64,000 bases of DNA from Xiphias gladius. Taxonomy: Eukaryota > Chordata > Actinopteri > Istiophoriformes > Xiphiidae. Position 1 is the stretch's first letter. Every line of letters starts with the position of its first letter. Shown here piece after piece: positions 23,420-57,216 of the stretch. Location: NCBI RefSeq assembly GCF_016859285.1, contig NC_053400.1, positions 13,902,046-13,966,045 of the forward strand, written 5' to 3'. Made by a program: the position numbers and the translations under genes. Below the pieces are notes generated by a model. It made no database searches. It was not told where the DNA came from and saw nothing but the letters and a program-made list of their open reading frames with translations.

Positions 23420-26400
23420 CTACACACTCTGATAGCCACTGTCCGGGATTAATGGCATAGGTTGGTTGGCAGTGATCAAAGGGAGAAAAGATCTTTGGAG
23501 CTCAGAAAGACACTGGCCACCCTGGACATCGTCAGTGAAAAGTTGAATCACTGGAGGGATCTTGGCGGATGATTCCGCCGGATATTTATCCAAATGTTCC
23601 TCTTTCTCGCCACTTCTTGCTTCCGAAAGGAAAAAATCAGGTTTCCCCACTAGATTTTGAAAGGCCTGGTAGTCGTCATCCACTGGAGGAAAGCTGTGCG
23701 AGCCGGCAGGCAGACAGCCATAGCAGGGATTGTCATCACATACGGTGGCCTCTTCCATTTTTCCATTTGGCTTTGTCGCACCGCTGACCACCTCGTCAAA
23801 ACTCTCAAGCCCCGCCTCAACTCTGTACACAGGATCACATGAGGCGATTGTGATGGTGCCACTAGAGAAGGAGGACAAACTGGAGTCCTCTGCACATGAG
23901 AATCTCTCAGAATCTGCATTGTGTTGCTGATATGACATGTCCGTTGGCAGAAGAGATGAAACCACCGCTGGTAAATTGAGGAGCGGACAAGCTGGTGCCT
24001 GCTGGTCAGAGCAGGTCACCACGTCACCCTCACTAGGATGGTATGCAGAGTCACAAACCATTTTAGCCTGCGTCTGGACGTCAGATCTGCCCATCACGAT
24101 CTGACCTTGGCAGCTGGGAATGAGAATGGAATAGGTTTTGTTGTCAAAACCTGATGATCCAGAGCTCATGTCATCAGCGCTGACAACAAAAAGATTGTTT
24201 GGAGCGGAGAATAAACCACTGTCTTTGTTGGATTCTGTGAGCAGATTGGTGGTCAGAGCTGATATCGGGCTGATATTGGGGAAGGCTTTACCAAGGGCAT
24301 CCTGAACACCGGCTATAATGTCAGCAGGTTCTGTGTTCGCATAACTGAGACAGGAGGAGTTAGTGCTGATTCCGCTGCTTTGCTGTGGGCTCCCACCGCT
24401 AGTGTCTGTCAGTGACCCCTTCGACCTGAATGAAGAGACACGGGTTGCAGAAAGTGCCAATTTTATCGCGCAGGGATCCTTACGGAAATGTGTTTTATTG
24501 TTGATGCGCTGGTGCAGCCATACTCACCACATTTTGCTGTCATCTGGAATAAGGGGCTCCACACAGACAGAGGAAATGATGGGTGGCTCGGGTTTCAAGA
24601 ACTGAAACAAGAAGGATCACCATGATTAAAACTACAGATGTGAAACATTTCAGTTAAAGGGGTCAGTTTAGAAATGTTCTTTTCCAAACGATTCTACATG
24701 AACTATGTAACATTGCAGAAAAGGATTTTTTAAATTGATCATGTTTTTGAAAGTATCTGGAAAGGTTTAAAGTTGTTATCCTTAGGATTTCATTCTCCGA
24801 TGGTTTGGTGACACCCGTGGTTACCGTGGTAACTGCAAATACAGTTTCACACTAAACTCAGTGAGCAGCTGGATTACTGGTTTATCCGTTTACAGTGCAG
24901 CCAAACAAACTCGGATTGTTTTAACTACGAAAATTACCGCAGCTGCGATTTGTTTTCATGCTGCCCATGGCATGAGTAGTTTTCCCTAAATAGAAAATTG
25001 GTAACGCCGGATTGCATGCTCCAATTGTTTCCTGTGAATCCCTCGTGCGATGTGAAGGCAATCTGAATCCAGTGTAGGAATGGCTGACCCTGCATCTAAC
25101 TATAAAAACGACTACATAGAGAAGTAAAAGCAGAATGTAGCTGCAGTGAATGTCTACTGCTGGAAAAAAATGCTGACGATAAATACTATGATTTCATGTA
25201 CACCATTTTAAGGATTATAACTTTAATGTTTAAGTGTAATTAAGTAAAATAAATAGATGCAATAATTGAATCTGTGAGTTTTTGATTTCTGACCAACCTC
25301 AAATTTACATCACTGGGTGTCTCACCTCTTGCTCATTTGGATGCATAATAAGAAGTTTTGGTTTTGAACATTTGGCAACCGTGTCCCACCACTTTGTCTT
25401 CAACCTAAAATCAAATGTACAAAAATTTAATTACTTAATTAAAAAATGATAATAAAAGCAAAAGAAAATGGACAAAAATGGCAAACGACACATCAACACA
25501 ACATGAGTTACAGCATTTAAGGGAAAAACCTTTCATATAATTCACAAACAGAGAAACATGGCAGACAATCTTTTATCTGCATGACTTACTTTACATAACA
25601 GCCAAATATAGCACTGCTGATTAACACTGCAGCAATACTGAGGCTGATGATGAGCGCAAAGATCAAGGCATTAGGGGAGGCACCTGTGAAGTAACAAGTA
25701 TGAAGTAAGTTGACGAACCACTCAATTTCTGTAGAGATGAAATACAACAGAGATAATCTAGGGAGGAGTACCTGGTGTATGCCTTTAAATCTAGAACCAG
25801 GCTTGTGTTATGCGAACCACAATGACAGCTTGTGTTACTATTCAACACCTGTAGATATGCTGCATCAGCAGATGTTGGCATTATCGGTTCTCTCAAGTGG
25901 CTCGTGATTAAACATTTATTTTGGTTTGAGCGGGGTGTGCCGCAACAACTAAATCAATGTAAATTTGGAATGTCCTTCATGACACTGCAAGCTAATGTTA
26001 ATACCAACGCACACAGCAGGCTTAACTGCAGATGTCACTGCTGTGTGCGTTGTGTAGCCGTTTGGTGACGGTATAAACTGCCATGGTTCAACAGTCGTGG
26101 TCACAGTAAATGAAACTCTATAAAGTAACTAACTAGATGTTTTATTATTGTGGAGCAGATTTTAAAAATTGACAAATAAAAAAATGGATATGGATAAACT
26201 GAAAATAATTTGCTGACTCCCGAAGACCGTTTTTGATTTTGAGGGTTACAGGGGTCTAAGATTTCACATAACGGCTCAGACACACTGTCCTCTGGTCCAG
26301 CTTTAACATTTGTGTGACATTTGAGACTCCTTTTTCTACAAATAAACTGCCGTCCTGCACTAGTCTCTGGCTTTCCTTTTCTTTTTCTATAACATACTGT

Positions 26401-27907
26401 ACAGGGTTTACTTGTTCTATGAATATCTGTCTGAGGTATTACCTTCTTGCATCACCTCTACAAGGAGAAATATAGACTATGTACTGCTTGAAAAGACAAA
26501 AAGGCTGTAAGGATGACACTTACGGGTTGTGAATTCCCACTCGTTGCTACTGTCACTGAATCTGCCACTCCAGCTTGTTTGGCTTTTCACGCTGACCACA
26601 TATGTTGTACTTGACTCCAAATTTCGACCAGGTATTTCATAGATATTCCATCCATCAATGGTAGTTGGTTTGAAAGACTGAACGACCTGCTATGGAGAAG
26701 CAGCAAATCAAATGCCCATGCCTGTGTCTACATCTCCAGGACAAATGATCTCAGCGTCATACGGTGCCTATGACATTGCTCCTACCTTTTCCGTGTCTCC
26801 CTTTTTATGGTACATCAAATGAGCAGTCAAGCTTTCCCTGAAAATGCCCGCATCAGTTGCTTTCCACGTCACCAGAAAATTCCCGTTGGTTTCTTTCACT
26901 GATGCGATATTTGGGGTTTGGGGCTTTGCTGTAGAGGAAACAGAGATAAGAAACAGTGAGAGGAAAGTATCTTAGGTGACCTCCATCTGTGCTGCACCTA
27001 TTCCCTGTTATTCTGGGTTCGGATCCATCTATTTCTGGCAGCTGCAGACTTGTGGACTTTCACGTAAAAGAAGTCCACTTACTGCTCGCTGAGACGTCGA
27101 TTTTTTTGGACTCCACACGTTCGTTCCCTCTCCAAACCGTCGCTGTATGGGTCTCCCCGAGAACAAGTATCATTTGGACAGAGCAACAACACCGTCCACT
27201 GTCACACTGCTTGAGAGCACAATGAGTCTCTCTGTGGAATACAAGAGTATATACAACATGCTCTGAGTGTATCCCGTTTACATTTCTGGCTTCCCAGACT
27301 GATTCAGTTGATTTTAATATTACATGTAGGCTACAATATAAATTATATATATACATTTTGTGTACGTATAAAATTTGAGTGAAAATCATCTTTATTATAA
27401 TTCTGTTTGATTTCACGACCAAGACTTAGATCAAAAATGTACAGCTTTAACTCTGTAACTTCACTGGCTCTGTAGTGAAACACACACTAAGTAAATAACA
27501 GCTCACCCTTCCCCATCGTCGCCCAGGAGAGTCAAAATGTATTCAGAGCAGTTTTGTGCTCCAAAGTCGCAAAACATCTGTGAAACAAAGTGGTTGGTAC
27601 AGTCGAGATCTGGGCCTGTTTCGTTACTGACTCCTGCACGGAACAGACATTGCACGAAGAGACTGTTAGTGGCAGTGAATTACAGCAGAAGTAGACCATC
27701 TAAAACTACTTATTCTCTATACGTACCAGAGCAAGTTATGACGGTGGCAACATTTCCTAAAATCATCAGGTAGAGAAACATCCTGCGGCGAACTCGCCTG
27801 AAAGCAAACACAACAGCAGATATTTCCCTTCCTTAAAGGGCAACACATTTGAAGATGTAGTTAACGCAGACATTTTCCGAGGATCTAGATTACCTGTTTA
27901 TCTCCAT
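23420..27907 (-). CDS. il4r: Interleukin-4 receptor alpha chain (complete)
   Basis: This is a type I cytokine receptor chain for IL-4/13-like ligands that signals through JAK and STAT6. Ten in-frame coding exons encode 639 residues: 27894-27907, 27727-27797, 27507-27633, 27083-27231, 26786-26928, 26524-26686, 25590-25683, 25326-25404, 24528-24601 and 23420-24425. Residues 1-28 form a signal peptide (MFLYLMILGNVATVITCS). Next come a cysteine-rich D1 domain (ALKQCDSGRCCC) and a fibronectin III D2 domain ending in the WSXWS equivalent WSGRFSDSS (W207). A transmembrane helix follows (about 229-250, FALIISLSIAAVLISSAIFG), then a Box 1-like stretch KTKWWDTVAKCSKPKL. The long tail has DDDYQAFQNL around Tyr557, resembling mammalian STAT6-docking sites, and a C-terminal SGYQSV. 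The exon layout matches IL4R. The family call rests on the D1/D2 pattern and tail motifs, so another gamma-chain-related receptor is a weaker alternative. Confidence 0.88.
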
Positions 27908-27939
27908 GCTGAGAAGATCCCTTCAGAGATCCAACTCGG

Positions 27940-27969
27940 TTACGCCTTACTTCGACTGACCGTGAACAT
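27940..27969 (-). promoter_or_regulatory. Upstream ORF in il4r leader
   Basis: A 9-codon frame, ATG to TAA (MFTVSRSKA), ends 32 bases before the il4r start codon on the same strand. Its ATG context (GCACCATGT) is better than average, so it could damp translation of the receptor. The duplicate leader keeps the same frame but with CACT in place of CACC before the ATG. It is relevant only if transcription starts upstream of 27969. Confidence 0.4.
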
Positions 27970-28086
27970 GGTGCGCGCCGCGTACTCACAACAAAGTGCC
28001 CGAGTCTCACGGTCTTCCTTATCCGGAAAGCTGCTGGACTGGAAACGTTGCGCCACCGATTCGCGGAAAGTGCGTCCCTCTCCCAT

Positions 28087-28096
28087 TTCCCCAGAA
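28087..28096. promoter_or_regulatory. Candidate STAT6-type site upstream of il4r
   Basis: TTCCCCAGAA is a TTC-N4-GAA motif, the spacing STAT6 prefers, about 180 bases upstream of the il4r ATG. IL-4 induces its own receptor in mammals, so such a site is plausible. The same motif is retained at 33324-33333 in the duplicate, inside a hairpin loop. Confidence 0.35.
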
Positions 28097-28796
28097 CGCA
28101 AGAAAGCGGCGTACGTGCGTACGTGGAGGAAACACGGGAAAACGATCCGCCCGAATACCAAAACAAAAGGGAATCGTTGTATTAAACGTGTTAACAGGCA
28201 GGGCCGTGCAGCTCTAAAGCGGTGGAAGAATCCATATTTAATGTGCCTGTACATATGTCACTGAAAGCATCAAGCACCACTGGTTCTCGTGTTATTTTTG
28301 CGCTGCCGCGCATTACTGAGGGCAGTTAACATCCCCCGTTGTGCTGTGCGGGACAGATACTCCCAGGGTGGCACGCTGGCGTTCGCCTCCTGCTTCACAA
28401 CACGGAGACGAGGCTCATCGTGAATGTCCCTGACCGGAAGTGGCAGGTGTAGCAGGTATGGGCTCGTGTGTGAGCGCTGCTGCTGTGAGGATGGTGGGAA
28501 TGGCCGATATCCGTGTTGACGAATTACCAGCTTTATCAAAGGCCTCTGTCTATCCATCTCGCCGACTAGAGAAGTGTACGGCGAGATTGCTCAGAGTGCA
28601 ACCCGATATTCACCAACATTTTGAATCAAGTTTTCTCTATGAATCATGACTAAGTAATATTTATCATTTGTTTTTATATTCTTCTTATTCTTGTATAAGT
28701 ATTTGAATATCTATGAATATTTCTTTACTGTAAATGTCAATATGTGTGGCTAACCTGTGTATGTCTCGATGTACAGTTATATTAAAGTAACCATAT

Positions 28797-29870
28797 ATAC
28801 AGTTAGGTACATAAGTATTTGGACAGTCATACAATTTGCATAATTTGGCCTCGGTACACCAACGTAATGGATTTGAAATGAAGCCCCCAAGATGTGATTG
28901 AAGTTTAGACTTTCAGCTTTAATTCAAGGGGGTTAGAATAACTGCCATTTCTATACATGGTCCCTCATCTTCAGAGGCTCAAAAGTAATTGGGCAAACCA
29001 ACATGATTATAAATATAAAGATTATTTTTTATATTTGGATGGAAATCCTTTGCAGTCAATGACTGCTTGAGATCTGGAACCTATGGACGTCACCAAGTAT
29101 TGAGTTTCCTCCCTTGAGATGCTTTGCCAGGCCTTTACTGCAGCCGCCTTCAGTTGCTGCTTGTTGTGGGTCTTTCTGCCCTCAGTTTTGTCTTCAGTAA
29201 TTGAAAAACATGCTCACATGGGTTGAGGTCAGGTGACTGACTTGGCCTTTTAAGAATAATCCATTTCTTTACCTTGAGAAGCTCTTCGGTTGCTTTCACA
29301 GTATGTTTTGGGTCATTATCCATCTGTACTGTGAAGTACTGTCCTATCAGTTGTGCAGCATTTTGCTGGATCTGAGTAGATAGTTTAGCCCTATACACTT
29401 CATAATACATCCTGCTACTTCTATCAGCAGTCACATCATCAATAAACAGCAGTGACCCAGTTCCATTGGCGGCCATACATGTCCATGCCATAAGACTGCC
29501 TCCACCATGTTTGACAGATGATGTGGTATGCTTTGGATCATGAACCGTTCCTTTTCTTCTCCATACTCTTCTCTTCCCATCATTCTGGTACAAGTTCATC
29601 TTGGTTTCATCTGTCCAAAGAATCTTGTTCCAGAGCTGGGCAGGTTTTTTAGATGTTTTCTGCCAGTGAATTTCTTCCATTTAAGAATGTAACAAATTGT
29701 TGATTTAATCCTAAAGTTTCTGTCGTCTGTCTGTTAGGTTTGTTTTGTTTTTTCAGCCTAATGATGGCATCATTCATTTGCATCGACAGCTCTTTGGACA
29801 GCATATTGAGAGTTCCCCTGTATAGCTACCAAATGCAAATTCAACACTTGGATTCAAATATCTAGTGGAA
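28797..29870 (-). mobile_element. Tc1-like (Tc1/mariner) element, 5'-truncated, unit 1
   Basis: The left end carries a Tc1-type terminal sequence (CAGTTAGGTACATAAGTATT, then GGACAGT). A minus-strand frame at 29150-29680 encodes the catalytic part of a DD34E transposase: WTDETK, GGGSLMAW, MDNDPKHT and SPDLNPCEHVF. The usual NPIEHLW is altered to NPCEHVF. The C-terminus continues in another frame (a frameshift near 29150). The N-terminal helix-turn-helix region and the right terminal repeat are missing. It is a dead DNA transposon lying upstream of il4r and copied with it. Confidence 0.85.
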
Positions 29871-30740
29871 CTGTGTGAGTGTTTGTGTGTCTGCAAAGAA
29901 ATTTTGCTCACCTTATTTCTCAAATCATACCAATATTTGTTATACACAGAGCAAAATCATTTGTTAAGGACATTATAAAGGTAAAGGTCAGTTTCCACAA
30001 TATGTTTATGTCATTTATGTAAATTATAATTAAATGTAGATGATCCATATTCTGTGTATAACAAGTGCAGAGAATACATGAGGTTGTTGCGACCACAGCG
30101 AGAGTTTGTATTCAGTCAGACCACCAGGTGGGATCATAGTTACAGTATTACGTGACAGATTAGCAGCCTCTTGTGTTGCAGTGTTGCCTTTACTTTTGAA
30201 GTTCACAAGAAGAAATGATTAACTTACTATTGCAAGAACATCTTTATAAATGTGTGTGAATCCTGTTGACAGTGTTCCCAGCAACACTGTGCAAATGCAG
30301 ATGAGTTACATTTCACAAGAGATTTTTATGTTGCAAGAGCTGTTCTGCTGACCTGTAATGACTTGTGTACAAATATACTGTACACAAACATTTCCAATGC
30401 CCAGTTCTGTCTGTTAATTTAACCATGTACAATATGCCGTACTTCTGCTGCATGCTTGCCAAAACAAGACTGATATACTAGTGCAATCTCAGTGTGAAAC
30501 TATTTGTTATACACATTTAACACGATTTATACATTTAAGTGCAAGGAAATTAATGTGATTGTAACATTTTTTATTGAAGGTTAAAGAATTAAAAAAAACA
30601 AAAAAAACAATGTTATGATCTCAGCAGCAATGTCTCTCTCCAGGTACAATGTCCCTGTTAGTCAGATTAATCCACAAACTTCAACGTGGACAATTTTAAT
30701 ATTTCTACATACTCTTCTTTGCGACATATCAGTCATGGGG

Positions 30741-33131
30741 TTATACCTCATTTTTGAAGAGTTTTGTAAGAAATAACCTTGGTGAAGTATTTTTCTGGTT
30801 ATTTATCCAGATGTTCCTCTTTCTCGGCACTTCTTGGCTCTGAAAAAAAAAAAAAAAAGGTTTTAGGCTGATGATGAGAGCAAAGATCATGGCATTAGGG
30901 GAGGCACCTGTGAAGTAACAAGTATGAAGTAAGTTGACGAACCACTCAATTTCTGTAGAGATGAAATACAACAGAGATAATCTAGGGAGGAGTACCTGGT
31001 GTATGCCTTTAAATCTAGAACCAGGCTTGTGTTATGCGAACCACAATGACAGCTTGTGTTACTATTCAACACCTGTAGATATGCTGCATCAGCAGATGTT
31101 GGCATTATCGGTTCTCTCAAGTGGCTCGTGATTAAACATTTATTTTGGTTTGAGCGGGGTGTGCCGCAACAACTAAATCAATGTAAATTTGGAATGTCCT
31201 TCATGACACTGCAAGCTAATGTTAATACCAACGCACACAGCAGGCTTAACTGCAGATGTCACTGCTGTGTGCGTTGTGTAGCCGTTTGGTGACGGTATAA
31301 ACTGCCATGGTTCAACAGTCGTGGTCACAGTAAATGAAACTCTATAAAGTAACTAACTAGATGTTTTATTATTGTGGAGCAGATTTTAAAAATTGACAAA
31401 TAAAAAAATAGATATGGATAAACTGAAAATAATTTGCTGACTCCCGAAGACCGTTTTTGATTTTGAGGGTTACAGGGGTCTAAGATTTCACATAACGGCT
31501 CAGACACACTGTCCTCTGGTCCAGCTTTAACATTTGTGTGACATTTGAGACTCCTTTTTCTACAAATAAACTGCCGTCCTGCACTAGTCTCTGGCTTTCC
31601 TTTTCTTTTTCTATAACATACTGTACAGGGTTTACTTGTTCTATGAATATCTGTCTGAGGTATTACCTTCTTGCATCACCTCTACAAGGAGAAATATAGA
31701 CTATGTACTGCTTGAAAAGACAAAAAGGCTGTAAGGATGACACTTACGGGTTGTGAATTCCCACTCGTTGCTACTGTCACTGAATCTGCCACTCCAGCTT
31801 GTTTGGCTTTTCACGCTGACCACATATGTTGTACTTGACTCCAAATTTCGACCAGGTATTTCATAGATATTCCATCCATCAATGGTAGTTGGTTTGAAAG
31901 ACTGAACGACCTGCTATGGAGAAGCAGCAAATCAAATGCCCATGCCTGTGTCTACATCTCCAGGACAAATGATCTCAGCGTCATACGGTGCCTATGACAT
32001 TGCTCCTACCTTTTCCGTGTCTCCCTTTTTATGGTACATCAATTGAGCAGTCAAGCTTTCCCTGAAAGAGCCCGCATCAGTTGCTTTCCACATCACCAGA
32101 AAATTCCCGTTGGTTTCTTTCACTGATGTGATATTTGGGGTTTGGGGCTTTGCTGTAGAGGAAACAGAGATAAGAAACAGTGAGAGGAAAGTATCTTAGG
32201 TGACCTCCATCTGTGCTGCACCTATTCCCTGTTATTCTGGGTTCGGATCCATCTATTTCTGGAAGCTGCAGACTTGTGGACTTTCACGTAAAAGAAGTCC
32301 ACTTACTGCTCCCTGAGACGTCGATTTTTTTGGACTCCACACGTTCGTTCCCTCTCCAAACCGTCGCTGTATGGGTCTCCCCGAGAACAAGTATCATTTG
32401 GACAGAGCAACAACACCGTCCACTGTCACACTGCTTGAGAGCACAATGAGTCTCTCTGTGGAATACAAGAGTATATACAACATGCTCTGAGTGTATCCCG
32501 TTTACATTTCTGGCTTCCCAGACTGATTCAGTTGATTTTAATATTACATGTAGGCTACAATATAAATTATATATATACATTTTGTGTACGTATAAAATTT
32601 GAGTGAAAATCATCTTTATTATAATTCTGTTTGATTTCACGACCAAGACTTAGATCAAAAATGTACAGCTTTAACTCTGTAACTTCACTGGCTCTGTAGT
32701 GAAACACACACTAAGTAAATAACAGCTCACCCTTCCCCATCGTCGCCCAGGAGAGTCAAAATGTATTCAGAGCAGTTTTGTGCTCCAAAGTCGCAAAACA
32801 TCTGTGAAACAAAGTGGTTGGTACAGTCGAGATCTGGGCCTGTTTCGTTACTGACTCCTGCACGGAACAGACATTGCACGAAGAGACTGTTAGTGGCAGT
32901 GAATTACAGCAGAAGTAGACCATCTAAAACTACTTATTCTCTATACGTACCAGAGCAAGTTATGACGGTGGCAACATTTCCTAAAATCATCAGGTAGAGA
33001 AACATCCTGCGGCGAACTCGCCTGAAAGCAAACACAACAGCAGATATTTCCCTTCCTTAAAGGGCAACACATTTGAAGATGTAGTTAACGCAGACATTTT
33101 CCGAGGATCTAGATTACCTGTTTATCTCCAT
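30741..33131 (-). CDS. Truncated il4r duplicate: ectodomain with broken membrane segment (decoy-receptor candidate or pseudogene)
   Basis: The six ectodomain exons of il4r are all present with intact splice sites: 33118-33131, 32951-33021, 32731-32857, 32307-32455, 32010-32152 and 31748-31910. The seventh exon starts normally at 30907 (ASPNAMIFALIISL), but the homology stops after ten membrane residues. A T-tract encoding KPFFFFFQSQ follows, and the frame continues (EVPRKRN...) to a stop at 30741. The joined frame gives 277 residues with signal peptide, D1, D2 and WSGRF, but without Box 1, the STAT6 docking tyrosine or a normal anchor. CTGAAAAA and the T-tract ending in CAG also resemble a splice acceptor, so the real 3' structure is uncertain. 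The product would be secreted or poorly anchored. No poly(A) signal was assigned. Confidence 0.55.
30797..30840 (-). pseudogene. Remnant of il4r cytoplasmic-tail exon
   Basis: The bases match 23578-23622 of il4r exon 10 with roughly 13 percent differences. In the original frame they read PRSAEKEEHLDK then a stop, where il4r has ARSGEKEEHLDKYP. This divergence is far larger than that of the adjoining duplicated ectodomain. The piece is therefore older than the 4.9-kb duplication and probably belongs to a decayed tandem paralogue. Confidence 0.6.
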
Positions 33132-33306
33132 GCTGAGAAGATTTTTTTTGTGTCCCCCTTCAGAGATCCAACTCGGTTACGCCTTACTTCGACTGACCGT
33201 GAACATAGTGCGCGCCGCGTACTCACAACAAAGTGCCCGAGTCTCACGGTCTTCCTTATCCGGAAAGCTGCTGGACTGGAAACGTTGCGCCACCGATTCG
33301 CGGAAA

Positions 33307-33350
33307 GTGCGTCCCTCTCCCATTTCCCCAGAACTGGGAGAGGGACGCAC
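33307..33350. repeat. 15-bp fold-back hairpin around STAT-like site in duplicate leader
   Basis: GTGCGTCCCTCTCCC (33307-33321) is followed by its exact reverse complement at 33336-33350, with a 14-base loop containing TTCCCCAGAA. Unit 1 has only the left arm (28070-28084). The right arm was thus created in unit 2 at the junction of a 347-base loss, as expected for templated repair by snap-back synthesis. Confidence 0.9.
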
Positions 33351-33716
33351 CTCTACCAGCAACAGGTGTAGCAGGTATGGGCTCGTGTGTGAGCGCTGCT
33401 GCTGTGAGGATGGTGGGAATGGCCGATATCCGTGTTGACGAATTACCAGCTTTATCAAAGGCCTCTGTCTATCCATCTCGCCGACTAGAGAAGTGTACGG
33501 CGAGATTGCTCAGAGTGCAACCCGATATTCACCAACATTTTGAATCAAGTTTTCTCTATGAATCATGACTAAGTAATATTTATCATTTGTTTTTATATTC
33601 TTCTTATTCTTGTATAAGTATTTGAATATCTATGAATATTTCTTTACTGTAAATGTCAATATGTGTGGCTAACCTGTGTATGTCTCGATGTACAGTTATA
33701 TTAAAGTAACCATATA

Positions 33717-34790
33717 TACAGTTAGGTACATAAGTATTTGGACAGTGACACAATTTGCATAATTTGGCCTCGGTACACCAACGTACTGGATTTGAAATGA
33801 AGCCCCCAAGATGTGATTGAAGTTTAGACTTTCAGCTTTAATTCAAGGGGGTTAGAATAACTGCCATTTCTATACATGGTCCCTCATCTTCAGAGGCTCA
33901 AAAGTAATTGGGCAAACCAACATGATTATAAATATAAAGATTATTTTTTATATTTGGATGGAAATCCTTTGCAGTCAATGACTGCCTGAGATCTGGAACC
34001 TATGGACGTCACCAAGTATTGAGTTTCCTCCCTTGAGATGCTTTGCCAGGCCTTTACTGCAGCCGCCTTCAGTTGCTGGTTGTTGTGGGTCTTTCTGCCC
34101 TCAGTTTTGTCTTCAGTAATTGAAAAACATGCTCACATGGGTTGAGGTCAGGTGACTGACTTGGCCTTTTAAGAATAATCCATTTCTTTACCTTGAGAAG
34201 CTCTTGGGTTGCTTTCGCAGTATGTTTTGGGTCATTATCCATCTGTACTGTGAAGTACTGTCCTATCAATTGTGCAGCATTTTGCTGGATCTGAGTAGAT
34301 AGTTTAGCCCTATACACTTCATAATACATCCTGCTACTTCTATCAGCAGTCACATCATCAATAAACAGCAGTGACCCAGTTCCATTGGCGGCCATACATG
34401 TCCATGCCATAAGACTGCCTCCACCATGTTTGACAGATGATGTGGTATGCTTTGGATCATGAACCGTTCCTTTTCTTCTCCATACTCTTCTCTTCCCATC
34501 ATTCTGGTACAAGTTCATCTTGGTTTCATCTGTCCAAAGAATCTTGTTCCAGAGCTGGGCAGGTTTTTTAGATGTTTTCTGCCAGTGAATTTCTTCCATT
34601 TAAGAATGTAACAAATTGTTGATTTAATCCTAAAGTTTCTGTCGTCTGTCTGTTAGGTTTGTTTTGTTTTTTCAGCCTAATGATGGCATCATTCATTTGC
34701 ATCGACAGCTCTTTGGACAGCATATTGAGAGTTCCCCTGTATAGCTACCAAATGCAAATTCAACACTTGGATTCAAATATCTAGTGGAAC
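33717..34790 (-). mobile_element. Tc1-like element, 5'-truncated, unit 2 copy
   Basis: This is the duplicate of the element at 28797-29870, with the transposase fragment at 34069-34599. Small residue differences (KHTAKATQELL against KHTVKATEELL, TTTSN against TTSSN) show both copies have drifted a little since duplication. It shares the same truncation, so it came from segmental duplication, not a second insertion. Confidence 0.85.
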
Positions 34791-35486
34791 TGTGTGAGTG
34801 TGTGTGTGTGTCTGCAAAGAAATTTTGCTCACCTCATTTCTCAAATCATACCAATATTTGTTACACACAGAGCAAAATCATTTGTTATGGACATTATAAA
34901 GGTAAAGGTCAGTTTCCACAATATGTTTATGTCATTTATGTAAATTATAATTAAATGTAGATGATCCATATTCTGTGTATAACAAGTGCACAGAATACAT
35001 GAGGTTGTTGCGACCACAGCGAGAGTTTGTATTCAGTCAGACCACCAGGTGGGATCATAGTTACAGTATTAGGTGACAGATTAGCAGCCTCTTGTGTTGC
35101 AGTGTTGCCTTTACTTTTGAAGTTCACAAGAAGAAATGATTAACTTACTATTGCAAGAACATCTTTATAAATGTGTGTGAATCCTGTTGACAGTGTTCCC
35201 AGCAACACTGTGCAAATGCAGATGAGTTACATTTCACAAGAGATTTTTATGTTGCAAGAGCTGTTCTGCTGACCTGTAATGACTTGTGTGCAAATATACT
35301 GTACACAAACATTTCCAATCCCCAGTTCTGTCTGTTAATGTAACCATGTACGATATACCCTACTTCAGGGGCATGCTTGCCAAAACAAGACTGATATACT
35401 AGTGCAATCTCAGTGTGAAACTATTTGTTATACACATTTAACACGATTTATACATTTAAGTGCAAGGAAATTCATGTGATTGTAAT

Positions 35487-35880
35487 GGATTTGAAATGAA
35501 GCCACCAAGATGTGATTGAAGTTTAGACTTTCAGCTTTAATTCAAGGGATTTACCAAAAGCATCGTATTGACCGTGTTAGAATAACTGCCATTTCTATAC
35601 ATAGTCCCTCATCTTCAGAGGCTCAAAAGTAATTGAACAAAGTAACACAATTATAAATATAGGGATTATTTTTAATACTTGGATGAACATCCTTTGCAGT
35701 CAATGACTGCCTGAGGTCTGGAACCCATGGACATCACCCAAATCTTAGTTTCCTCCCTTGAGATGCTTTGCCAGGCCTTGACTGCAGCCGCCTTCAGTTG
35801 CTGCTTGTTGTGGGTCTTTCTGCCCTCAGTTTTGTCTTCAGTAAGTGAAATGCATGTTCAGTTGGAATGAGGTCAGGAGA
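35487..35880 (-). mobile_element. Tc1-like fragment (C-terminal end), separate insertion
   Basis: This resembles the left portion of the Tc1-like elements at 28797 and 33717 (AATGGATTTGAAATGAAGCC, CTTCAGCTTTAATTCAAGGG, CAGCCGCCTTCAGTTGCTG). It has many more differences and a small insertion (ATTTACCAAAAGCATCGTAT). It starts abruptly at the end of duplication unit 2 and ends where il4r-like exon 3 sequence begins. It is an older or independent insertion. Confidence 0.7.
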
Positions 35881-44041: not shown

Positions 44042-47000
44042 ATGTCTGCTAGACGGGCTCTGGTAGAGTGTGCTGTGTTGTCTGTGCGAGATACCTGTGT
44101 GTTTTATCCCTGCTGTAAAGGCTGCCTCTCAAGGATTGATGTTGAGCAGCAGGACACGACGAGGTAAAAAACACAAACAACCAAGCTAAAGGACTAATTT
44201 GTTTCACAAATGAAGAGGAAACAGTGGGTCTTTTGAAAGCACTTTCATAACTTCACTGTGACTAAATACCCTGTAAACTTGTCCAAGTTAACTGAAAATG
44301 AATGCCAATACTTTATTATGTCCCTGCCAAGTTCATACAGAAGCAGCTGTGTAAGGGTTGTATTTGAATGAGCAAAAAAACTGAAAATGAATTACTTCCC
44401 TCACTGATTTATGTTACCCAGAAAAACGCAAAACCTTTACCTACAATGCAGATGAACTCGATATAACTTTGTCTCACTCGCTTACACATGACACACCTTC
44501 ATCTGTCTTCTCTGTGTACCCACTGTAGATGCAGATGCTCCAAGTGTGGTTACAGCTGTCTGAGGGAACAGGTTGAGTACAGATATCGTCTCTCACTAAA
44601 GGTGGCCCGGGACAGATGCATATTTGGAGTAACAGTATTTGGAACCTGCTTGAACCCATTCTTTGGCATTCATGCAAGTGGACTACAGAGGTGAGAGAAG
44701 GAAATTATTTTTTAAGCAACTCCGCGTTTTTGCAATTAAATTAATCTGTTGATTAATTAATGTATTCTTTGTCAAAATCCGTCATATCCATTTTAAGCAT
44801 GCACATCCCTTTCAGCTTAATTTCATTGAAGGAAATTTAAAGGTATCTTAAACATTCTCTAAGTTCAGCAGTCAGTTCCCGTTGCTCTATATCTGAAGCA
44901 CAACATCATTCTCTGTGTTGAACATTTAGGCCACGTATTGAACATCGTACATACACAAGTCTGGTTTTAATGAACTTATCAGTAACTATCTGACATTATT
45001 TTTTGTACCAGTCTCGGTGTATATACCTCCATACTTACAACAAGATAGACCTGATCTGCATGCAGCATTATTCCTGGTATATGTTGCAAGGTTTTCCCAC
45101 AGGACATGGTTAAACAGAGATAGTAAGCCACCCATGTCTTGACATATCTTGTCTTATTATCAGTTTAGTGAAAAGCAGTGTGCATTTTTGTTAAGTTTGT
45201 GATTTTGTAGGTTGGTGGAGAACTCAGATGGATCACTTGGAACATCAACCAGAGCCACACTGTTGGCGAAGGCTGTGGAGGACTGTTTCATTGGCAGACA
45301 TTTCATCTTTGGTGTAAAGGTACTATTGCTATTGGGTATGGGATATTTCAATGGCTTATGCAAAATTTGTCAGTGTCTGTACCGTATTGACTGACATAAA
45401 TATACTTTTGTTTCTGATTAAATTTAAGATGATTTTTATGTATATAAAATACTGTTTTCCCACCTTAATTAGTCTAATAACCTTAACTAGTCTAGTCATT
45501 GTTTGCACTCTTGGCACTTTTGCAACAGCCAGTAAGTTGCCAGAATTTTCCATATTCTGCCCTTCTCCTTCTTTCCTGGTAAATCCAACTAGACAAGTAC
45601 TGCTAATTTATACATGTATTATCATCACACAAGTTAGATGATAAGTGAAATGCAGACAAATGTTAGCTAAAAAAACCACAAACTTGCCAGTTGGGAAACC
45701 CCACCAGCCTGGACAGTGGTAACAGTACAGTTCTGTGAAAATTCAGTGAAATTCCAGAAGACAGTGGTGAATCCACAGTATCTTACAATTTGTGAAAAAC
45801 CTGTTGATCGGTTGATTAATTTTTTAATCCATTTTATCCTAATCTATGTGTTTGTCTATTTATATTTGCTGATACTGAGTATGTGAGCTAGGGCTGCAAC
45901 TAATGATTATTTTCATTATTGGTTAATTTGCTGATGATTTTTTAGACAATCATTTGGTGTAACCAATCGACTAATTGTTTTGAGGTCTAATTTGAACAGT
46001 ATGTCCTAAATATGTGTATTATATAAATTTAATTTGCTTTTATGCTGCTTTATCTCAACCAACCCTGGTCTTGTCTGTATCCTTAAGGTAAGCAGAACAG
46101 AAAGTGGGCTTTGGTTTGGAGGGTCTGTTGCAAATGGCTCCAGCAGTAAAGACACAGTCCAGTATATCGCAAGTCAGATGATTCTCCCCAAAGCTGCAGG
46201 CCTGGGAGGCTGCACAGTGGTCAGTTATTATCGGATCCTTCTTCAGAAAGCTGCAGAGTATGAGCTCGGATCTACTGGTCCCAGCAAACCCTGCAGACCC
46301 CCAGAAACAACCCTGCTGCTGATTCATCATCACTCTTTAGCCAGTAGCTTCAGTAATGCCACACTGTCTGCCTCAGGTCTTCTTTCCCAGTCACTGCAAA
46401 GGTAATGCAATTAAGGAGCTACTGATAAATATTGCTTTCTATGTGATAATTCTCAGTATTGTATATCAAGGGCAGAGTCTGTAGGGGGCAGAAACAAATC
46501 ATGAACGGATGGGAGGTAGTGAGAATGACTTAGGAAATTTGAAATCAAAGTAAAAACAACACAAATTTTTAACTGTGCCTCAAGATTTTCCTCACTGGAA
46601 CGTGCTCTTTGGAGCGGAGGAAAATATAAATTTAAGGCACTGAAATTTCAAAGAATAAACTTAAAGATGTTAAAACAGGAGATGAGGCTATCTCAGCAGG
46701 GACAGTCCAGCATGCCTATACTGACGTCGTGTTTATGTACTGTAACACTCTTCTCGAACCCACTTTAAGTTTTCTCTTTGTCCTTCCTAAATAATGTGAA
46801 AACAAGTCTAGTTTTACATGTTTTTATTTTTCACATCTGCTTTTTCAAATTTTTCTTACTTTTGTGATATATCTTTTTTTTTTTTTTGGTAGATCACAGC
46901 ATGAAGACTGCACCCTTACTCCGACTCCTCCATGGCAACAGTCACTAGGACTAGTTACTTCATCAGCGGAGCAGGAGGAAGGCTACAGTACCCAGGACAA

Positions 47001-48738
47001 AACACCACATGTGCATCATCATGTGAGAGGCTGCCTGGAGAACCATAAAGCCACAGAGGAGAGAACTCTGTTGTCACCTCTTTCTTTAGAGCACAGGACT
47101 TACAGTAGTCCATCATTTGCCAAATACCCACACACATCTATTGAGAAAGCTGTTGAAAAAAACCCCATCCTGACCACTTGGTTCAGTCCCACCCAGCCTG
47201 GCCACAAAAGGGGTTTATCACTCAGCTATAAGGCAAAGAGGTTTTCTACCAGACAACTCGCCAAAACATTTTTGTCAAGCTCCTTGGCTTGGGATGATTT
47301 GCCTTTCTCTGAGAGTCTTGCAGAGTTTTTGGGTGAGGAAAACAAAGATTTTGACATTGTTAGTGAAACCGATCCACATCTAAAAGTGCAAAATCAGAAA
47401 GAAACAGTAAGAAACAACCTGGAAATCAGATCACAAGACATGAACTTGTCAATTGAGTCAACTTCTTTTTATCAAAGTAACACAGATATAACAGAGAGCC
47501 ACTCACTGATGTTACTGGATATCACTAATAAACCTGCACTGAACAATGGAGGTGATAAACATGATTTATCTGACCAGGTATGCAAGAACTCCGTTGGATG
47601 TTTAAACAAAAGTCAAGCCAGAAGCATTTGTTTCCATCAGTGTAATCAGGAGGACGAGGAAGCTAGTTCTCTGTCTTTTGAAAACAAAGAAGAAGAGCAG
47701 CTTGAAGGAGATACCTATAATTGTTCAGCAGACCTATTCGGTAGCTCAGTAATGATCGAAATGAACACAAAGACACTAAGCATGTATGCAGAAACCGTCA
47801 GGACAACTTCAGAAGCTTGCATGCTGCTTTCCAGTCCAGACAAACAACACCTGAGGAATGAAAAGGCTGGTGTCCCACATTCAACACCAGACAAACAGAA
47901 GCTGAAAAGTAATAAACACATTAACAGAGACAGTTTAATTCAACCAGGCACACAAGATCTTGACTTCATCCCTCCTGCTCAGTCTACCCCAATTGTAAAA
48001 GCAGCTGTTGTGTCAGGGTCACCTGCCTCCTCATACTCCCCCTCGACATTAGGTGAATTCAGTTCACAACCAGACTGTCAAGATTTGTGTGCTTTTTACA
48101 GTGATCTGCCAGAATTGGACAGTAGAAATCCAGCCAGAATCACCTCTTCTCAGTGTAGACTGAACACTGTCAGTGCTAACCAGCTGTCCCAGTGTGTCAA
48201 AGAGTCTACTAAAGAAAACTTGGTGTGGGGCATGACATCCAGCAGACACGACCACAGACTTACCCCAAAAAAGAGGTTCTGGGAATCAAACAAGCATAAA
48301 GATCATATGTTTCAGCAGCACCTGACGGCAAAGAGGGGGGATCTAAACCTGGGGTCAACATTAATGATTACCAACAAATGTGACTCAAGTGTTTGTGATG
48401 TGACTGTGTGTGAGTATAAGGACAATGAAGTAATTGTTCCACCTACTCCTGCTGCTAAAACACGACTGAATGTGAAGTTCAGAAGAAGAAGGCAGACTGA
48501 TAAGAGCAGTGGTGATTTGGAATCTACTTGGAAAGCGCAGCAGGGGGATGGAGTTAATTGTAAAAGAACTCTGTTGGATCAAACTTTCACATCATCACAA
48601 AGAGGTCTGATACAAACAGGAAATTGTGACAGTGAGATAGTTGATGAGGGGAGTCTGGATGGATCCAGTGGTTACCTCCTTGACGATGAGAACCAGGCAT
48701 GTGATTGGTCTAGAGATCTTTTCTCTAACTCGGTCTGA
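44042..48738 (+). CDS. ddias: DNA damage-induced apoptosis suppressor (Noxin)
   Basis: DDIAS is a nuclear/cytoplasmic protein induced by DNA damage that restrains apoptosis and supports proliferation. Five coding exons (44042-44163, 44529-44690, 45211-45319, 46088-46401 and 46893-48738) join in frame to 850 residues. The N-terminal half matches the family's OB-fold, RPA-like region: VLSVRDTCVFYPCCKGCLSR, a zinc-binding pair of CxxC motifs (CCKGC, CSKCG), YRYRLSLKVA, VTVFGTCLNPFFGIHASGLQ, and AVEDCFIGRHFIFGV. The large last exon is low-conservation, but holds the family motif WDDLPFSESL near residue 368 and a late PPTP motif. It ends WSRDLFSNSV, like human WSPELFS. Human DDIAS is about 1000 residues, so the shorter tail is normal for fish. 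The start codon follows a GC-rich promoter with GCTAGC words. The gene appears intact. Confidence 0.93.
45892..45986 (+). repeat. Dispersed teleost repeat in ddias intron 3
   Basis: GCTAGGGCTGCAACTAATGA, TTATTTTCATTATTGGTTAA, ACCAATCGACTAATTGTTTT is the wording of a high-copy fish repeat (AGGGCTGCAACTAACGATTA family). It sits about 100 bases before exon 4. Confidence 0.65.
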
Positions 48739-53598: not shown

Positions 53599-56500
53599 AT
53601 GGAGGTAAGAGAATATTTATTAGTACATGATTTACATGTTCAAGCCGCCTACTGCTATAAAGATAGTAAAGACTATTATGACTTTACTTTCACTGATATG
53701 TTAAATAACCAAGTAACTTTACTCATCATTGGACTCATGGCTTTTTATTTTTTTATCTTTATCTTTATAGTAGCCAACTGTAAACATGTATTGACAGTTG
53801 TGCATATTGAAAGTATAAATTAATTTTTTTCTGAGAGTGCTTAAACTACAGAGTAGTTTTTAGATAGAAAACGTAATCCTTGAAAATGAATGTTTCTACA
53901 TGATTTAAAGTTCTTGTGCATGTACATCCCTGGAGTTTATTTGATGGGTTTTTTTTTTAGTGCCATTCTTTTAATCTTGTTACTTAAGCAAAAATAACTA
54001 TTACTGACCAAGCTCTGTCCTCTCCAGGCATTACCTTGTGCCCAGGAAGTTAGTAGTCACACAGCATCACTGTTGATGAGTCTTAACCTCCAAAGAGAAC
54101 AAGCTCAGTTCTGTGACTGTGTGGTCAGACAAAGACAGAGCCCAGGTCAACTCTACCCTGCACACAGGTACGCAACATGAACTGGTTTTATTATTGCAAA
54201 TGCCCCCCCCCCATGTACATATTGAAGAAATATTAGAAAGTCTTTGTTTATATTGGTAGTGTTGTGTCTTATTTGATGATCATGAATTTATACAGCCTCA
54301 CAATTTAGTTCTTTTTGCTCCTGCAGGTGTGTTCTGGCAGCTTCCAGTCCAGTGCTGGCATCTATCTTGTCTTCTACTGGTGCCCTGGTGGAACTGCAAG
54401 CACCATGTCTGTCCGGTTCTGTGCTGTCACTTATTCTGGACTACATCTATACAGGGACCTTGCCGTACACACGTACCCAGCAATATTATTACGGTCTGCT
54501 CAATGCCGCCTGCTACCTGCAGATGGATGAACTGCAGGGTTCTCTCAGGGCTTGGCAACAGACTCAGGCGAACAATGCAGATAAAACAAATGCTTCCACT
54601 GGAACTGAGAATCAGCCATATGAAGACATCAATACCCATAGTAAAAGTGCGAACTCCTGTAGTAAGTGTCTACCTTTAACATGCAGTATAGATACATTTC
54701 AAAGACGTGGGGAAACAGACACTTGCAGCGTGAAAAGTACTGCAAGTTCACTGCAGAGAGAGGATCATCAATATTCAGCCAAAGTAAAAACCTGTGATGA
54801 AGCTCAGATGCATTCAGCCAGTATAGATCCCTGTATTAAAGGTGGGAAAACAGATACATTTGGATCTAGCCGTATAATTGGTGCAAACCACTGTAGTAGA
54901 AAAGATGTAAGCACTTTAAGCCATGTGAATACCTGTTGTAGTATATCTGAGCGCTGCACTGAAAGTAGTGTAATTACACGTAACTGCAGACAAGTATCTT
55001 ATCCGACGCCTCATGATTTGATTCAAAATATCCCTTCCGCCACTGAAGTGCGCGGAGTGTCTAAAGTGGACAAAGAGGTGCAAAAGGATCAGCTCCATTC
55101 ACGAGGCACTGTAAAACCAGAGACTTGGCAGAAGAGAACAGAAGAGGAGCCCGTGAACACAGCTAAGGACAGGAGGAACTCCTCATCCTCTTCCTCAGCA
55201 CCACATCCGTGCTGTGGGGCAGTGCCTGTCATCTGTCACAGCAGTAGAGCAACTATGCTCCAGCTGGCAGAAGAGTCTACAATGCCTCCTCACCATGCAG
55301 TATCCCAGGCCTCGGTCAACTCCAGCAGTGCCCCTGTGTCACGATCAGCAAGCACAGACAATGACATTATTGTTGAAGGTATTACTGCTAAATACAAAAA
55401 TCACCATGGGGTAAAGAATCAGGATTACAGAAACATTAACGACCACACTGGAACACAGAATTGGGATTACCAGAATAGTTCAGATCAATGTGCAATACAG
55501 GATTTATTTTACAAATCCAGTGCAGATCAATCTGACATGCTAGAACAAGATTACAACAGCAGCAATGCAGATTATTTTATGAAACAGAATGATGAATTTA
55601 TGGACAATGAATTATCCCACATTACACATCATAGTGATCACCAAGCTCATTGTGACTCATCTCAGAATAAGAATCACACAAAACATTTTAGAGATGATTC
55701 AGTGCCACAGCGTAAGGTTCACAGCAGTTTACTCAAGGGATTAAGGTATAAAACTGAGCTCAGTTTTGATGATTTGCCTTCGAAACATCAACGACTGGAT
55801 AGCCACGATGTCTCAGTGTCAGCTGCAGCAGAGGATTTCTCACAACATCCAACAGCTGTTGTTCCACCTCCTTTGGAGGACTTGGACAGAGGAAGTGACT
55901 CTCACTGTGAAGACTTGTGTCCCGAGGAAGAAGCCAAAGAGGAACACAGTTACTCTGACAGGTTTCCAACTGACGTGGATAGACAGGACCCCCGCTGTAA
56001 CCTCTATGGACCTAAGACACATTGGTACCCAAACCTGCGTAGAGCTGAGACGAGCACACAAGACACTGCTTCAATGCCACATGAACATGACTCAGACAAC
56101 AGAGACACATCTATGGAAGACAAAAGACACAGTCCTGATGTTTGTCTGCCTATCTCCACCACACCAGAATCAAGTTTGGATAATGTCACTTGTGGTCTCT
56201 TTGTCTTTGAACGCTGCAAATCACTGGAACTTGAAAAGATCTCAGACACTGAAATCCCAGAGCCACACTTAACCTTCACAGAGATTGTGAACAGCAACAG
56301 TTCTGACCCCATGTATAGTGTTGTGGGGCAGTCATACCGTGGACATCTTCATTGTCACTGCCTACCCCAGGAGGACAAGCACTTGTTGCACAGAGACTCT
56401 GATCACAAACACTCCCACCTTAGCCACCCTGATTATTCAGACCAGTCCAGTGACGAGGAGGAAGCTGGGACCTTTGCCAGTCCAGGTCACAGTTCTCTGA

Positions 56501-57216
56501 GGCAGCAGTTTGCTACAGGGACGAATGACCAGGTTCTACTGCTGGACATTAATGCCAAACCTTCTGAGTTGCTTGTATCCTACAAACACAGATCGGAAGA
56601 AGAAGAGAAAAGCGTCGCATTGGGCAAAAATGAAACATTTGGGACTTGGATCAGGAATAATGACAGAGAAAAAAGGAATGAATCAACATCTGTAACGAGG
56701 GTTTACAAGAGAAAAATTAGATGTAGGACAAAAATTGGGTCAAATGTTGAAGAAAGAAAATCAGTTGGTAAAGACCAAAGAACGCTAAGAGGTGATGTCA
56801 CACATAAAGCTGGGGTTGTGGAGGAGGTTTCTAACCCTAAAGTGTGTGAGAACCAGAGCAGTACCGTGACAGTCTGTTCACTTCCTAGTGTGCCAGACTC
56901 TGTGCAAGCCTCCATGTCGTCTGCCTCGTCTGTCTGCATACCCTCTACCGTTTCAGCCAGCATGCCAACAAATATATCAGCTGATCTGTCAACTCCTCCT
57001 CACCACCCTTTCCAGTGTTCTCTTTGCGACCGTTCTTTTAGCCAGCGAGGCTCTCTGAATAGACATGTGCGGAGCCACCTTGGTGTACGGCCTTTCCCCT
57101 GCCCCTGTTGCCCTATGACCTTTTCACGCCAGTACCGTGTCACAGAGCACATGCGGGTTCACCAGCGGTGTACCTTAGGGAATGACTTTCACAAACCCCC
57201 TGCCTCTTCAATTTGA
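53599..57216 (+). CDS. BTB/POZ protein with two C-terminal C2H2 zinc fingers (ZBTB-like)
   Basis: This is a probable nuclear transcription regulator: BTB/POZ for dimerisation and corepressor binding, zinc fingers for DNA. Three coding exons join in frame to 1011 residues: 53599-53604 (only ATG GAG), 54028-54167 and 54327-57216. Residues about 10-110 form the BTB domain (SLLMSLNLQREQAQFCDCVV, AHRCVLAASSPVLASIL, LILDYIYTGTLPY, LLNAACYLQMDEL). A long, serine- and histidine-rich, disordered middle follows, with degenerate repeats around residues 405-470 (NQDYRNIND, NWDYQNSSDQ, EQDYNSSNADY). Two C2H2 fingers close the protein from about residue 944: FQCSLCDRSFSQRGSLNRH and FPCPCCPMTFSRQYRVTEH, joined by the linker SHLGVRP. 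I cannot assign a specific ZBTB orthologue. The six-base first coding exon is inferred from the phase and the ATGGAG|GTAAGA donor, so an alternative start is possible. Confidence 0.85.

Follow-up and report, generated by a model that had tools for sequence, protein, structure and literature searches.

The swordfish (Xiphias gladius) genome holds, directly upstream of a complete il4r gene (copy A), a second copy (copy B). Its ectodomain is 99% identical to that of copy A and is joined to a 3′ end that appears to stem from a much older copy of il4r. Such a join suggests that an older, truncated tandem copy was overwritten from copy A, by gene conversion or through an unequal exchange. Taken as a whole, copy B is on balance probably a real, truncated tandem il4r copy whose parts differ in age, and its mosaic origin can be proposed with fair confidence. 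Both copies lie within the window, the whole 64-kb stretch of DNA that was analysed, whose positions are used throughout:

27907..23420, minus strand: copy A, complete il4r (10 exons, 639 aa, TM and cytoplasmic tail)
33131..30865, minus strand: copy B of il4r, exons 1–6 and the start of exon 7, a repeat of copy A
33131–33118, minus strand: copy B exon 1 (14 nt)
33021–32951, minus strand: copy B exon 2 (71 nt)
32857–32731, minus strand: copy B exon 3 (127 nt)
32455–32307, minus strand: copy B exon 4 (149 nt)
32152–32010, minus strand: copy B exon 5 (143 nt)
31910–31748, minus strand: copy B exon 6 (163 nt)
30907–30865, minus strand: copy B start of TM exon 7 (first 43 nt)

The assignment of copy A to il4r depends on a search of PDB sequences with residues 1–253, in which all seven matches (up to E 10) were to IL-4R alpha. 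The score is weak, with the best match reaching E 0.013 over residues 40–222. Pfam returned no cytokine-receptor match for either copy, and the WSXWS position reads SWSGRFSDSSNEW in both, a degenerate form. The cytoplasmic tail of copy A terminates in the residues GYQSV. The ends of its exons 8 and 9 were picked by eye out of several open splicings.

Copy B is a direct repeat of copy A (30865–33334 and 25641–28097, respectively; 99.0% identity). Exons 1–6 are of equal length in both, lie 5224 bp apart and have intact GT/AG sites, in agreement with the preliminary description, which had placed a repeat of the six ectodomain exons and their splice sites 5224 bases upstream. Across the leader, exons 1–6 and the start of exon 7 there are 11 substitutions in 2457 bp. 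The same description had reported the repeat to be free of indels; this holds from the start codon onward (33131 to 30865) and fails for the 5′ leader, where copy B carries a 13-bp insertion. The repeat also extends 2.1 kb further upstream than had been thought. As the introns of exons 1–6 and the intron preceding exon 7 are kept at ~99%, a processed pseudogene is ruled out. Lacking exons 8–9 and nearly all of exon 10, which copy A possesses, and with at best a marginal TM segment, copy B is by its predicted structure a truncated relative rather than a signalling IL-4R alpha. As far as the sequence tells, the signal peptide (judged by eye) and the ligand-binding ectodomain are kept and the membrane-proximal and signalling parts are lost, as had been proposed.

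The 3′ end of copy B is of a different character, and its features are as follows:

30802..30864, minus strand: old tail, a diverged piece of the il4r last exon fused to the TM exon, recognised by homology to the last exon of copy A
30843..30858, minus strand: run of 16 T (T16), which on read-through encodes 5 Phe
30842–30840, minus strand: CAG completing a 3′ splice site with T16; the first exon base is 30839
30801–30799, minus strand: TAA stop in the ancestral tail frame
30741..30743, minus strand: stop codon of the 277-residue read-through frame, from translation
30570..30575, minus strand: AATAAA, a hexamer resembling a poly(A) signal, where the old tail ends

Identity with copy A stops within the TM exon after ...ATCAGCCT, at the junction ATCAGCCT/AAAACCT. 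The DNA that follows in copy B reads AAAACC, T16 and CAGAGCCAAGAAGTGCCGAG..., the counterpart in the last exon of copy A being AAACCTGATTTTTTCCTTTCGGAAGCAAGAAGTGGCGAG.... Homology to this exon begins at the junction itself, on the same strand and in the same order as in copy A. The match, a short one adjoining T-rich sequence, comprises at its best 39 identities in 44 ungapped nt, with no more than 27 reached in 200 shuffles, and a genome search with the tail gives two matches, the tail itself and 57 bp at 86% in the last exon of copy A. A chance breakpoint into unrelated DNA is ruled out, the downstream DNA being il4r last exon on the right strand and in the right order. The T-tract had been described as running to a stop, which it does; it is, however, part of a diverged last-exon piece and not random sequence.

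The reading frame AAA CCT is common to the last exon of copy A and the tail of copy B, and therefore the TM exon and the last exon were probably first fused without a frameshift. Because of its length, the T run of copy B is now out of the old tail frame. In that frame the TAA stop follows ...EPRSAEKEEHLDK. Up to this stop 5 of 42 nt differ from copy A, 3 of the differences being silent. Beyond it the proportions are 9 of 23 and then 15 of 33 nt (p 0.024 and 0.0015), in windows picked after viewing the data, longer ones overrunning the local alignment. The pattern is no more than suggestive of a tail that was coding or constrained as far as its stop. The AATAAA hexamer starts at 30575, 11 bp ahead of the start of the repeat unit of copy A (30564).

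The tail differs from copy A at 12% of positions at least and the ectodomain at 1%; the tail therefore cannot be as young as the ectodomain. A recent duplication of the whole gene followed by deletion is likewise ruled out, since the tail differences before the stop are followed by 34 in the next 60 nt, against 1% elsewhere. The earlier designation of copy B as a young duplicate thus applies to the ectodomain and introns (~99% identical) and not to the 3′ end, which is old. Within the young part, the differences between the copies are unevenly spread, with two islands:

32043..32312 (copy A 26819–27088), minus strand: difference island of 270 bp, with 7 of the 11 substitutions found between leader and exon 7, 6 coding and 1 intronic
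35320..35370 (copy A 30399–30449), minus strand: second difference island, 8 substitutions in 51 bp, noncoding

Altogether 35 differences are clumped, with 16 neighbour pairs within 30 bp where 7.1 are expected (p 0.00025). This count leaves aside 15 substitutions placed by the aligner in the replaced site (28099–28443), differences outside the repeat edges and all indels; before exclusions the aligner gave 178 differences. Taken between the two copies alone, the changes are unpolarised. Such clumping would fit patchy gene conversion, with clustered mutation as the alternative account, and unequal crossing-over fits as well as gene conversion does. The proposed sequence of events begins with an older tandem il4r copy, which would have undergone an in-frame deletion reaching from the TM exon almost to the close of the last exon. 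This truncated copy would have gained a stop of its own and retained its poly(A) signal. More recently, copy A would have overwritten the part of copy B from the upstream region to the TM exon, patchily, by gene conversion or unequal exchange, and the overwriting would have stopped where homology ended.

No further old il4r exon was found in the 64-kb window, the best other ectodomain match being at E 1.2. Elsewhere in the window, Pfam recognises BTB and C2H2 zinc-finger domains in an open frame of 976 residues at 54286–57216; beside it are open frames at 46010–48738, which have no Pfam match and are presumably ddias.

Upstream of the leader the repeat is interrupted once and then continues:

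33307..33362, minus strand: replaced site, where 346 bp of copy A (28098–28443) are missing and copy B has a 28-bp filler
33363..35485, minus strand: continuation of the repeat upstream, matching 28444–30564 at 98.8%, with a Tc1-like transposase remnant inside

The 346-bp stretch adjoins the leader of copy A on its upstream side; its CpG observed/expected ratio is 1.08, and no STAT-like TTC-N3/4-GAA site is found in it. The filler in copy B copies the adjacent leader in inverted orientation, giving a 20-nt inverted repeat or hairpin (33307–33350). This resembles a scar of templated repair and is read as the trace of a break that was mended. The CpG-rich leader of 203 bp is retained in copy B (observed/expected 1.17), and a promoter may therefore still be present. 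Remnants of a Tc1-like transposase occur once per repeat copy, at 28864–29236 and 33783–34155. Their ORFs span 29150–29680 and 34069–34599, the former matching Pfam DDE_3 in a Pfam run made on the version of copy A only. A third Tc1-like stretch (35482–35880), ~85% identical, starts at most 4 bp from the outer edge of the repeat (35485).

If copy B is expressed, more than one product can be predicted. The first is the read-through form, whose joined frame of 277 residues, described previously, is confirmed by translation; it requires T16 and the proximal acceptor of exon 7. A further acceptor lengthens it:

25728 (copy A) and 30952 (copy B), minus strand: second exon 7 acceptor, 45 nt upstream, adding 15 residues before the membrane (frame checked in copy B)

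Use of this site yields 292 residues in frame. The read-through segment, MIFALIISLKPFFFFF, has a Kyte-Doolittle value of 1.73 over 19 residues (2.60 in copy A) and carries Lys-Pro mid-segment. Its summed insertion energy is +1.08 (−3.71 in copy A), on an approximate scale without position weighting. The TM prediction that had been suggested for the joined frame is divided, with a segment that is still hydrophobic and an insertion energy that speaks against an anchor. The segment would be a marginal membrane anchor at best. Runs of 16 T are liable to error and slippage, and with T17 or T14 the frame enters the old tail. The 277-residue form is one plausible product among several, and hangs on T16.

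The second predicted product joins exon 6 to the T-tract acceptor. It has 235 residues and no TM residues, keeps the old tail frame and is independent of the number of T because the run lies inside the intron. This acceptor scores 9.1, against 0.2–7.2 for the 17 other acceptors scored in copies A and B, on an approximate matrix of which the rank alone is trustworthy. The soluble 235-residue splice form would be at least as plausible as the read-through. Both products are without the exon 8–9 region of copy A, where box 1 is presumably placed, and the rest of its tail. Transcription of copy B would consequently give an IL-4R-alpha ectodomain devoid of juxtamembrane box and tail. Whether secreted (235 aa) or at best weakly anchored (277 aa), it could bind IL-4/13 without signalling.

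The two ectodomains are distinguished by 6 substitutions in 5 of 222 whole codons (A119G, A129T, T141M, I149S by two substitutions, and H157Q, from A to B). All are nonsynonymous (p 0.18 for none silent), and purifying selection therefore shows no sign. Exon 7 adds two differences, one residue change and one silent. From the leader to exon 7 the coding sequence differs at 8 of 710 positions and the noncoding sequence at 3 of 1747 (p 0.003; as events 7 and 3, p 0.008). For clumping, the noncoding upstream island gives p 0.00002 and the D2 island 0.002–0.003 (0.01–0.03 as events). Positive selection on domain 2 is not claimed, as the exon 7 pair is mixed, the noncoding island clumps more, counts are very low and an outgroup is lacking. 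A129T creates an N-I-T glycosylation sequon in copy B in place of N-I-A in copy A; the aligned residues of human IL-4R alpha are N-L-T. I149S falls in an alignment gap directly before the human D2 loop, of which D125 and Y127 are taken here to be the contact residues.

There is an even chance that copy B is a non-functional duplicate, weakly or never transcribed, which is recent and looks intact through youth. For 0.25%, 0.5% and 1% change on the branch of copy B, the frame would survive unselected with probabilities of 0.69, 0.48 and 0.23, under an assumed indel rate. Intactness is thus expected at the age of copy B, and an intact frame says little on function. The exclusively nonsynonymous ectodomain changes agree with such a copy, as do the missing 346 bp upstream, the insertion in the leader and a read-through C-terminus that is a frame accident of the T16 run. 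Against it, the splice sites of exons 1–6, the start codon and its context (by eye), the poly(A)-like hexamer and the CpG-rich leader are all kept, and the old tail appears constrained up to its stop. Should copy B prove non-functional, the locus would still illustrate clearly how truncated copies of a receptor come into being and undergo renewal.

A soluble IL-4/13 decoy in present use, made by splicing exon 6 to the T-tract acceptor and secreting the 235-residue ectodomain, is a possibility of lesser standing. The acceptor outranks the 17 others, preserves the ancestral tail frame and gives a product indifferent to the length of the T run. Upstream of it, however, are the acceptors of exon 7 at 30907 and 30952, to which splicing may turn first. 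The scoring matrix is approximate, and binding may be altered by the D2 changes close to the loop that contacts IL-4 in the human receptor. A precedent exists in zebrafish, in which alternative splicing is reported to yield a secreted IL-4R alpha (PMC7274943). In the same species, administered soluble rIL-4R ablated the effects of recombinant cytokine (PMC4929537).

A more elaborate form of the decoy reading is speculative and rather unlikely. Here an old truncated paralogue would serve as an IL-4/13 decoy whose binding exons are repeatedly refreshed from copy A by conversion, with its own non-signalling 3′ end kept and the D2 difference island retained. If this is true, a cytokine receptor and its decoy would be evolving in concert. 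Decoy receptors must keep pace with fast-evolving cytokines, and a binding part copied from the true receptor would show how.

It is improbable that copy B is an assembly error, i.e. an allele or chimeric artefact from two haplotypes placed in series. A divergence of 1% falls within the range of fish heterozygosity, as such an error would predict. However, the terminal 300 bp of copy B match, genome-wide, just the 57 bp in the last exon of copy A, copy B has a private rearranged upstream site, and the window contains zero Ns. A search of the swordfish genome (690.8 Mb, 1298 contigs) with the DNA of copy B finds three places, namely copy B, copy A and the tail piece in the last exon of copy A, and no copy on another of the 1298 contigs. 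Searched as protein against the genome, full-length copy A gives 14 matches among the best candidates scored, all in copies A and B, which leaves room for a distant third gene, and a scan of viral contigs found no relative. An exon cassette, in which exons 1–6 of copy B are spliced into exon 7 of copy A to yield a complete signalling receptor carrying a variant D2, is allowed by the equal lengths and hence equal phases of these exons, but is very improbable, as it needs transcription past the poly(A)-like signal and skipping of the first six exons of copy A.

Copy B as an age-mosaic, truncated tandem il4r copy can be compared with several known systems. A separate truncated il4r copy with a converted ectodomain was not found among the best-ranked matches in the openly searchable full-text literature. 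Both a soluble IL-4R alpha and a second copy of il4r have separate precedents in fish. The secreted zebrafish form resembles copy B, judged by its sequence, in being a non-signalling teleost ectodomain; it differs in arising by alternative splicing, whereas here a separate truncated gene copy is involved, if it is encoded at all.

Two il4r copies in one fish, as here, occur in sea bass and zebrafish. The zebrafish second il-4r-alpha (BN000885) was omitted from a mutation survey (PMC1963337). In sea bass, IL-4R-alpha1 and -alpha2 share ~65% of residues (PMC5440397), in contrast to the swordfish pair, in which 5 of 222 ectodomain codons differ and only the short old tail is diverged. One published primer for sea bass alpha1 (PMC5440397) has a 16-nt core that matches both swordfish copies exactly; of the full-length sea bass primers, 0 of 4 matched at ≤3 mismatches.

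IL-13R-alpha2 is a presumed decoy in mammals and trout (PMC4905449). Like the predicted product of copy B it would bind type-2 cytokines without signalling, although it is a different receptor gene. A likeness in architecture is seen in the CEACAM paired receptors, which are kept alike by gene conversion and recombination (PMC2832619). As in copies A and B, their ligand-binding and upstream parts are near-identical and their 3′ signalling parts differ. The CEACAM pairs, however, are adhesion receptors with opposite signals, followed across 27 mammals, whereas the present pair belongs to a cytokine receptor in one genome.
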